Origin: Daejeonella lutea
GTDB taxonomy: Bacteria > Bacteroidota > Bacteroidia > Sphingobacteriales > Sphingobacteriaceae
Direction of reading: 5' to 3'
DNA: 64,000 nt
Assembly: GCF_900168015.1 (NCBI RefSeq)
Contig: NZ_FUYR01000001.1
Coordinates: 33,968 to 97,967, forward strand
This document shows, piece after piece, positions 46,329 to 48,719 of this stretch. A program made the translations under genes and the position numbers. The notes under the pieces are model-generated. The model saw nothing but the letters and a program-made list of their open reading frames with translations, did no database searches and was not told the origin of the DNA. Positions within the stretch are counted from its first letter, which is position 1. Every line of letters starts with the position of its first letter.

Positions 46329-46637
46329 ATGAGCGTCGCTGATCAACTTAGTAAAGTAGTAGATAAAACCGGGAGGCTTATAGACCTTTGCGTGGCTTTA
46401 CAGGAGGAGAATGATCTGTTGAAGCGTGAGAACGAATCTCAGAAGAAGATTGTATTGAGCTCCGACAGCAGAATAAAAGATTTAGAAGAAAAACTGCGTG
46501 TTCTGACGCTTGCGAGGTCGCTGGAGGGGATGCCGTCAAATGAATTGGGGATGAGTGAAAAAACTCTTGACATAAAGCAAAAAATTACCGAATTTGTACG
46601 CGAAATAGATAAGTGTATTGTATTGCTAAAAAAGTAA
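46329..46637 (+). CDS. Small coiled-coil protein upstream of zapA
   Basis: This 102-residue, mostly helical protein has a heptad-like stretch at about 18-62 (LCVALQEENDLLKREN, IKDLEEKLRVL). I do not recognise a named family. Small coiled-coil proteins encoded just before zapA are a recurring arrangement in Bacteroidota, and by analogy with ZapB a divisome role is reasonable. It ends 6 bases before the zapA start. Confidence 0.75.
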   Translation: MSVADQLSKVVDKTGRLIDLCVALQEENDLLKRENESQKKIVLSSDSRIKDLEEKLRVLTLARSLEGMPSNELGMSEKTLDIKQKITEFVREIDKCIVLLKK

Positions 46638-46643
46638 TACATA

Positions 46644-46949
46644 GTGAATCAAGCTCAAATGGGAGAAATCTCCATAAAAATAAATATTGCTGATCGAGTT
46701 TACCCCTTAAAGGTAAACATGGAAGAGGAAGAGGTTATACGAAGGGCAGCTAAAATAATAAATGACCGCATAAAAGAATACCAGGACAATTATGCGGTTC
46801 GGGATAAACAGGATTTGTTATCCATGTGTGTGTTACATTATGCCACGGCGACTCTGAAAGCAGAGAAGAAGGTAATGAATGTTGATACAGATGTGGCGGA
46901 GAAAGTTTACGAATTAGACCAGCTGTTAACTGATTTTTTTTCAAAGTAG
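46644..46949 (+). CDS. zapA: Cell division protein ZapA
   Basis: ZapA bundles FtsZ protofilaments at mid-cell. The 101-residue protein has the typical strand-helix N-terminal head (ISIKINIADRVYPLKV), IRRAAKIINDRIKEYQ, and a C-terminal helix for the dimeric coiled coil (VAEKVYELDQLLTDFF). GTG 46644 opens the frame. ATG 46659 (MGEISIKIN) is an equally good start. Downstream lies the 6S-like RNA, then rny. Confidence 0.92.
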   Translation: MNQAQMGEISIKINIADRVYPLKVNMEEEEVIRRAAKIINDRIKEYQDNYAVRDKQDLLSMCVLHYATATLKAEKKVMNVDTDVAEKVYELDQLLTDFFSK

Positions 46950-46980
46950 TATCGTTCTTTATACATAGAGCAGTAAAGAT

Positions 46981-47141
46981 TTAACCGCAGTTAAATTTTT
47001 AAGTTTCACTATTTAAAGCTTAACACTTCAATATTGGAGGGTTAAAGGTCGATCATTTGCTTAGGCACCTGATCAATACCGGTACCCTATTAATGAACGA
47101 AGCTTATAATACATGATGCTTAAATTTAGTTGCGGTTTTTT
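46981..47141 (+). ncRNA. ssrS: 6S-like structured RNA between zapA and rny
   Basis: The 207-base gap between zapA and rny folds like 6S RNA. A closing stem pairs 46983-46998 with 47122-47137 (7 bp, a 2-base internal mismatch, then 7 bp) and ends in a T-run (47136-47142) that would terminate transcription. Inside are two long, A/T-rich strands that could form the central bubble (47001-47036 and 47088-47120). An apical hairpin follows, with AGGGT (47038-47042) pairing with ACCCT (47084-47088) and GATCA (47051-47055) with TGATC (47070-47074). In gammaproteobacteria ssrS also follows zapA. 6S-type RNAs (6S-Flavo) are known in Bacteroidota. The assignment rests on structure and synteny, not a covariance search. 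Confidence 0.65.
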
Positions 47142-47156
47142 TATACACAGACAAAT

Positions 47157-48719
47157 ATGACTATACTACAGACAATACTTTATGTTTTACTTGGACTAGC
47201 CGCTGGCGTTGTCATTGGAAGATTTCTTCTCAGGAAGCTTCTCAAGAATCAGGAAGTAGGTGCACAGAATAAAGCCAAAAAGATTCTTAAGGATGCCGAA
47301 ACGAGCGCGGAGATATTGAGAAAAGATAAGCTTCTGGAAGCTAAGGAAAAGTTCCTTCAGATGAAAGCAGATCACGAGCAGGAGATAAACAACAAAAATA
47401 ATGCGATCAATCAACGCGAGAATTCAGTTAAGCAGAAAGAGCAATCTATCAACCAAAAACTGGATAACCTGAGCCGTAAAGAGCAGGACCTGGACGGCGT
47501 AAAAGCAAATCTTGAAAAACAGATCGAGCTGATGAAATCCAAGCAGGAAGAAGTGGATGCATTAAAAAATCAGCATATCCAGCAAATGGAAACTATTGCG
47601 GGCCTTTCTGCAGAAGATGCAAAGAACCAATTGATTGATTCGCTGCGTGAAGAAGCCCGTACTCAAGCCATGATCCAGATCAAGGACATTGTAGACGAGG
47701 CGAAGCTAACGGCAAGTAAAGAGGCTAAGAAAGTTGTTATTCAAACAATTCAGCGGACTGCTACCGAAAGCGCTATTGAGAATACTGTATCCATTTTCAA
47801 CATTGAGAATGATGAGATTAAGGGGCGGGTTATTGGTCGCGAAGGCCGTAATATCCGTGCTCTTGAAGCCGCTACAGGTATTGAGATCATTGTTGATGAT
47901 ACACCAGAAGCAATCATTCTTTCTGGCTTTGATCCGGTAAGGCGTGAGATAGCTCGTTTAGCTTTACACCGCCTTGTGACTGACGGCCGGATTCACCCGG
48001 CACGAATTGAGGAAGTGGTGGCGAAAACCAAGAAACAGATCGAAGATGAGATAGTGGAGATTGGTGAGCGTACTGTTATTGATTTAGGAATACACGGACT
48101 ACATCCTGAGCTAATTCGAATGGTAGGAAGAATGCGCTACCGTTCGTCTTATGGCCAGAACCTGTTGCAGCACTCGCGTGAGGTTGCAAACTTTTGTGCT
48201 ACCATGGCGGCAGAACTAGGACTGAACGTTAAGATGGCCAAACGTGCGGGCCTGCTCCACGATATAGGCAAAGTTCCTGATGATAATCCGGAATTACCAC
48301 ACGCTATTCTTGGAATGCAGCTTGCTGAAAAGTATAAGGAACACCCTGAAGTTTGTAATGCCATTGGCGCCCACCACGATGAAGTGGAGATGACGTCCAT
48401 GATATCTCCAATAATACAGGCTTGTGATGCGATTTCAGGAGCAAGGCCAGGTGCACGACGTGAAGTGGTTGAAAGTTACATCCGCAGACTGAAAGAGCTA
48501 GAAGCACTTGCTTTATCTTATCCGGGTGTAGAAAAGACTTTCGCCATCCAGGCCGGAAGAGAATTACGTGTGGTTGTAGAAAGTGAGCGAATCACTGATG
48601 CGGCTGCAGAAATACTCGCAGCGGATATCTCTAACAGAATTCAGACTGAGATGACCTACCCGGGACAGATCAAGGTGACTGTGATTAGGGAGACCAGGTC
48701 GGTGTCTTATGCTAAATAG
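47157..48719 (+). CDS. rny: Ribonuclease Y
   Basis: RNase Y is a membrane-bound endoribonuclease that starts mRNA decay. The protein has 520 residues from ATG 47157 ([13 protein letters not shown]); the TTG at 47130 lies in the stem of the upstream RNA and is rejected. An N-terminal membrane helix (about 5-22) is followed by a long coiled coil (about 35-180), a KH domain ([19 protein letters not shown]) and an HD domain with GLLHDIGKV and [10 protein letters not shown]. All expected domains are present and in order. Confidence 0.96.

Follow-up and report, generated by a model that had tools for sequence, protein, structure and literature searches.

6S RNA is a global regulator of transcription whose sequence diverges until a family can seem to be without one. 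The classical family (RF00013; ssrS of Escherichia coli) is a long hairpin composed of a closing stem, a central bubble and an apical stem, the layout also found in the RNA described below. In the phylum Bacteroidota two further Rfam families are relevant: 6S-Flavo (RF01685) and Bacteroidales-1 (RF01693), for which Rfam suggests the reading 6S-Bacteroidales RNA. The ssrS gene of E. coli K-12 begins 41 nt after zapA and is followed by fau, not rny. Excerpts of the published record document a 6S RNA and its product RNAs in Bacteroides thetaiotaomicron (PMC7366714), a 6S RNA in Flavobacterium psychrophilum (PMC9723704), and the counting of 6S-Flavo among RNAs that share their function with a validated class (PMC2864571). 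An excerpt of a further survey places the zapA–ssrS array in beta- and gammaproteobacteria; in alphaproteobacteria ssrS is not found with zapA (PMC7641849). Our literature search found no report of 6S RNA for taxa with Sphingobacteri- in their names (a 2014 survey of 6S RNA across bacteria may already contain candidates), and nothing that joins ssrS with both zapA and rny. The terms 6S RNA and Pedobacter together returned PMC2864571 only, where in the excerpt available Pedobacter names another motif, and 6S RNA with Bacteroidetes and zapA returned PMC7641849 only, likewise available as an excerpt.

The window analysed here is a stretch of 64,000 nt from Daejeonella lutea (Sphingobacteriaceae). 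An earlier note, made from the sequence alone, proposed that the gap between zapA and rny encodes a 6S-like regulatory RNA. Synteny, a 6S-Flavo profile and covariation among relatives support that proposal: the RNA of this gap (hereafter gap RNA) is very probably the 6S RNA of D. lutea, an RNA polymerase brake that Rfam misses. The genes named as its neighbours are both recognized by Pfam (Table 1); the open reading frame upstream of zapA, at the position of zapB, matches no Pfam family above its cut-off.

Table 1. Features of the zapA–rny locus of D. lutea, numbered from the first nucleotide of the window
Feature	Position	Strand	Basis or remark
zapB-position ORF, 102 aa	46329–46637	+	upstream of zapA; zapB label by position only
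zapA, cell division protein ZapA	46659–46949	+	Pfam PF05164, E 4.5e-18
boxA-like element CGTTCTTTA	46953–46961	+	directly 3' of zapA stop codon
gap RNA, probable 6S RNA orthologue, ~165 nt	46977–47142	+	5' end approximate, 3' end = T-run; fold z-score, models R1 and R2, covariation
closing stem, 5' arm AACCGCAGTTAAATTT	46983–46998	+	sequence, fold, covariation
closing stem, 3' arm AAATTTAGTTGCGGTT	47122–47137	+	runs into T-run; sequence, fold, covariation
central helix GCTT	47018–47021	+	partner AAGC at 47100–47103; paired in window fold; covariation
central bubble, 5' strand AACACTTCAATATT	47022–47035	+	conserved; resembles AACACTAA of 6S-Flavo
apical stem-loop	47051–47074 (about)	+	variable among relatives; fold and alignment
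conserved TACATG, 3' strand	47110–47115	+	alignment of relatives
T-run after closing stem	47136–47142	+	sequence
rny, RNase Y	47157–48719	+	Pfam RNase_Y_N (E 5.4e-41), HD, KH

The predicted minimum free energy of the gap (46950–47156) is −55.2 kcal/mol, compared to −32.6 ± 3.8 kcal/mol for 200 dinucleotide shuffles (z = −5.9), none of which folds as well. The arms of the closing stem lie exactly where the earlier note had placed them, the apical stem is present in the fold, and the T-run ends 14 nt before the ATG of rny (15 bases had been given). The internal mismatch that the same note ascribed to the closing stem disappears when the sequence is read as RNA: the positions concerned form two tandem G-U wobbles (46990–47130 and 46991–47129) that are paired in the predicted fold. 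Of the two strands described as unpaired, parts are indeed unpaired, and short helices cross the remainder in the single-sequence fold; one of these helices has covariation support in relatives, and the 5' strand adjoining it is highly conserved in sequence. Since its 3' arm runs into the T-run, the closing stem also looks like an intrinsic terminator.

No Rfam family, RF01685, RF00013 and RF01693 included, reaches its gathering cut-off anywhere in the window. With E values up to 10 the only matches in the gap itself are three to unrelated families, all scoring far under their cut-offs, and none is to a 6S family; the comparison with the 6S and 6S-Flavo models that had been suggested is thus negative at both thresholds, and gap RNA falls outside all three families as they are thresholded. 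At E 0.001, none of RF01685, RF01693 and RF00013 matched the D. lutea genome (the last two searched with stricter filters), and the eight relatives scored best by our 6S-Flavo model (R2, below) gave no match to an Rfam 6S family even at E 10. If it is a 6S RNA, gap RNA is invisible to Rfam 15.

Relatives of the locus were the best 80 of 365 obtained from a scan with zapA: judged by title, these are mostly Mucilaginibacter, Daejeonella, Pedobacter and unclassified Sphingobacteriales or Bacteroidetes bins. rny is present in all 81 loci (these 80 plus the window), and the distance from the zapA stop codon to the rny ATG is 199–299 nt (median 224) in the 78 of the 81 for which it was taken. Gap RNA aligns over 79 of the 80 relatives and the window (alignment A1, with the diverged locus L060 left out): about 165 nt are conserved, including near-invariant interior stretches, and across the 80 aligned sequences most positions of the 5' strand of the central bubble are at least 90% conserved. 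The omitted locus, from a Mucilaginibacter metagenome-assembled genome, carries a strongly diverged gap RNA (24.9 bits with the own-family model R1, below) and is without the boxA-like motif. In a separate measurement, fourteen of the 80 loci have a longer zapA–rny gap of 286–375 nt (L021, L027, L031, L032, L035, L040, L041, L043, L048, L050, L062, L068, L069 and L072); in L021 and L068, which were aligned, the extra stretch sits downstream of the boxA-like motif and upstream of the RNA. In Pedobacter cryophilus an Rfam Flavo-1 RNA (RF01705) lies above cut-off downstream of the locus (L071, 4160–4256, minus strand).

The earlier note had named, as one outcome that would refute its proposal, a closing stem that does not covary in related loci; covariation was found. 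RNAalifold predicts 17 pairs on the alignment, eight of them changed on both sides. In a fuller structure of 25 pairs, 96.6% of cells are paired and nine pairs are changed on both sides, eight of these belonging to the outer two stems. In 500 shuffles no value as high as the observed one was obtained on any of five measures, a comparison that favours the structure, since it was chosen on the same alignment that tests it, and that relatedness among the sequences can inflate. Sliding the partner by one to three columns reduces pairing from 96.6% to 29–57%; the slide of +2 also gives nine pairs changed on both sides, but on the strength of 12 cells versus 23. At the central-helix position, a pattern search over the 80 sequences gave A-T in 58, G-C in 15 and G-T in 3, to which reading added G-C in the window and in L001. 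The structure of the gap is real: it folds far better than shuffles and is conserved with compensatory changes in relatives.

Could this be a strong, conserved terminator hairpin 3' of zapA and nothing more? Gap RNA does end like an intrinsic terminator, close after zapA, and in two loci of other Bacteroidia (L122 and L123) inspection by eye suggests that the short gap contains no more than one inverted repeat before a T-run. Conservation of the ~165 nt, however, extends beyond the outer stem into near-invariant interior stretches, and the 6S-Flavo model aligns from end to end; we consider this explanation very improbable.

The locus can be compared with those of recognized 6S families. Across 296 genomes of the phylum RF01685 matches 36 times, with 12 of the matches over cut-off; among the 30 of these for which the places of both match and rny are listed, the match lies 45–150 nt upstream of rny and on the same strand in 29. 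The lone exception, G037, is the weakest RF01685 match. It is a sub-cut-off match of 38 bits (L142, 754–902, minus strand) on a contig other than that of rny; the stretch upstream of rny in this genome gave no zapA match, and the 6S-Flavo match may be a relocated 6S RNA or a chance match. All 20 fetched 6S-Flavo loci show zapA, 6S RNA and rny in this order and in frame. RF00013 has 24 matches in 198 genomes (one over cut-off), 22 of them in a single family (f17). In the three distant families that hold these matches, rny lies downstream and a short open reading frame upstream in 24 of 24 loci fetched, and the upstream frame is ZapA by Pfam in the four of four tested; short frames similar to that at 46329–46637 precede the zapA-like frame. 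The earlier note had suggested, with gammaproteobacteria in mind, that linkage of zapA and ssrS is conserved across phyla. Outside Proteobacteria we examined three RNAs of this phylum (RF01685, RF00013 and gap RNA) and find the linkage for each; because the RF01685, RF00013 and E. coli loci share it, linkage across phyla is upheld in these groups. The position of gap RNA is orthologous to theirs.

The arrangement is not universal in Bacteroidia, as neither of our models fully matched any of 22 rny-upstream stretches from other families of the class (f2 and f5–f11): R2 gave no match at E 1 and R1 gave two weak matches, of 13.6 bits and 11.3 bits. By eye, seven loci from distant families (L130, L133, L134, L135, L136, L137 and L139) have a common 6S-like stretch before rny, which reads GCAGGCCTCACC ... 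CAGTGGAAG ... CCCACTGTG ... GGTTCTT; Rfam matched only the last of these seven (RF00013, 32.7 bits, below cut-off).

Proximity to rny admits a second explanation, in which the gap serves rny as a cis-regulatory leader. It would then be a conserved terminator or attenuator, responsive to RNase Y or to the state of RNA decay, and would yield no free RNA. The distance from T-run to rny ATG is only 11–38 nt (median 18) in 78 of the 81 loci (the best 80 of 365 plus the window; L010, L060 and L068 are left out of this count), hardly enough space for rny to have a promoter of its own, and an rny transcript arriving from upstream must cross this terminator. RF01685 or RF00013 6S RNAs nevertheless occupy the same slot in other families, and strong conservation is found in the interior strands, not in the outer stem only. 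We consider a leader of this kind unlikely.

Homology was assessed with two covariance models. R2 is a full-length 6S-Flavo model built from 20 RF01685 matches (12 over cut-off and eight just below) plus the weaker L109 and L110, in which the RF01693 model overlaps the RF01685 matches. Against the 80 relatives and the window, R2 gave 39 matches to E 10, of which 26 fall on gap RNA and on its strand, from 26 of the 81 sources; the 16 best of the 39 are all on gap RNA (best E 6.1e-4). With default filters the remaining 55 sources, the window included, gave no on-site match at E 10. With filters off and 3.2 kb searched, R2 matches the window at 46970–47144 (22.3 bits, E 4.2e-4), the next match scoring 10.7 bits. 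R1 is a model of gap RNA made from own-family (Sphingobacteriaceae) sequences, the window among them. At E 1e-3 it matches eight of eight genomes of the own family and, among the 288 others, none (296 genomes in all), the former figure being partly by construction, since the window is in the model and two of the genomes (G122 and G099) are apparently model members (L008 and L055); three others (G002, G080 and G138) still score 90–95 bits. On the 6S-Flavo loci R1 matches on site in three of 20 (17.6–19.6 bits, against 16.4 bits for the best chance match). Gap RNA is thus homologous to an accepted 6S family by R2, a test of low sensitivity that is weak in the reverse direction. The two families share a core made up of AAACTYAACRCT in the 5' strand and RAGTTT..ATACA in the 3' strand, and the central helix GCTT/AAGC of gap RNA is aligned with AAACTC/GAGTTT of 6S-Flavo (R2 match in L036). 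Their closing-stem sequences are without resemblance.

The last of these observations would be expected if an unrelated structured RNA had replaced 6S RNA in the Sphingobacteriaceae and kept its place, and the weakness of R1 on 6S-Flavo loci and the 55 of 81 sources missed by R2 point the same way. The shared core and the on-site profile matches argue against such a replacement, which we regard as extremely improbable. Orthology of gap RNA and 6S-Flavo is supported by position and by the 6S-Flavo profile, and less by the reverse profile. Together, synteny, the R2 matches and the family specificity of R1 indicate a 6S lineage, invisible to Rfam, in a zapA–6S–rny locus.

A further feature of the locus is the boxA-like element. 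The motif [CT]GTTCTT[TA] is found within 25 nt of the zapA stop codon in 76 of the 81 loci (the best 80 of 365 relatives plus the window), and GTTC[TA]TT is found upstream of the RNA in all 20 6S-Flavo loci. The 16S leader of D. lutea carries CCGTTCTTTAAAGA, which includes the same 9-mer CGTTCTTTA, and GTTCTT[TA] occurs in six of the seven own-family rRNA leaders fetched, the seventh being cut by a contig end; the element is the motif of this genome's own rRNA leaders. We take the name boxA from the E. coli consensus and from the match to the 16S leader. The motif is not enriched in the D. lutea genome (13 matches, the same number as in the reversed control); the grounds for reading it as boxA are therefore its position and its conservation. 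Nor does the motif track the rRNA leader of each lineage exactly: leaders of family f4 show GTTCAT in five of seven fetched (two are cut by contig ends), and the 20 6S-Flavo loci read GTTCTTT in 17 and GTTCATT in three (15 and five by script, which counts a copy inside the RNA in two loci). In family f3 the 6S-Flavo RNA is present without the boxA-like motif. No publication joining 6S RNA with boxA was found in our literature search, the matches being, by title, on other subjects.

The exact promoter consensus TAnnTTTG is absent from the window between 700 nt before the end of zapA and rny, and in the same region it occurs in eight of the 81 loci (the best 80 of 365 plus the window, some having less than 700 nt upstream). 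Given this absence and the short distance from T-run to rny, cotranscription with zapA and read-through into rny is the simplest reading. We are confident, though short of certain, of the explanation as a whole: that 46977–47142 encodes a 6S RNA, orthologous to 6S-Flavo and too diverged for the Rfam model, which would work as follows. Gap RNA would most likely be cotranscribed with zapA, the transcript passing a boxA-like site directly after the zapA stop codon. The long hairpin would then form, its closing stem doubling as a terminator, and the transcript would presumably be trimmed to about 165 nt. Beyond the structure, conservation, locus and 6S-Flavo homology observed here, the RNA may mimic an open promoter, holding the housekeeping RNA polymerase during nutrient shortage, and may be set free when a short product RNA is synthesized, an action we infer by analogy with known 6S RNAs.

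A more specific scheme may be put forward tentatively, and we think it rather doubtful: that 6S RNA lacks a dedicated promoter in the Sphingobacteriaceae and in family f4 of 6S-Flavo (presumably Flavobacteriaceae) and is an operon member behind zapA, that rRNA-style boxA antitermination shields it from Rho, and that its closing stem, as a terminator, limits how much transcription reads through into rny. If true, one transcript would tie together cell division, the brake on RNA polymerase and the decay of RNA. A way for an untranslated RNA within an operon to escape Rho is suggested by the boxA-like element.

The position of the locus has thus rescued what is in all probability a 6S RNA missed by Rfam. 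With the zapA–6S neighbourhood common to Bacteroidota and E. coli, ancestral versus selected linkage becomes testable. Among known systems, Bacteroidales-1 belongs to the same phylum, but a search of the D. lutea genome with RF01693 at E 0.001 gave nothing. Classical 6S RNA resembles gap RNA in following zapA, both in E. coli and in distant families of the phylum, and differs in that gap RNA is without an Rfam match and that the downstream gene in E. coli is fau. The boxA of rRNA leaders offers a parallel in the 9-mer shared with the 16S leader, whereas the element in the gap, a putative site for NusB and S10, precedes a probable 6S RNA, not rRNA. The closest counterpart is 6S-Flavo. Gap RNA is not recognized by RF01685 at either threshold, its closing stem has a different sequence, and its model R1 stays within its own family among the 296 genomes sampled; yet both RNAs lie between zapA and rny on the same strand, downstream of a boxA-like element (in the 20 6S-Flavo loci read), and both are T-run-ended hairpins built around the same core.
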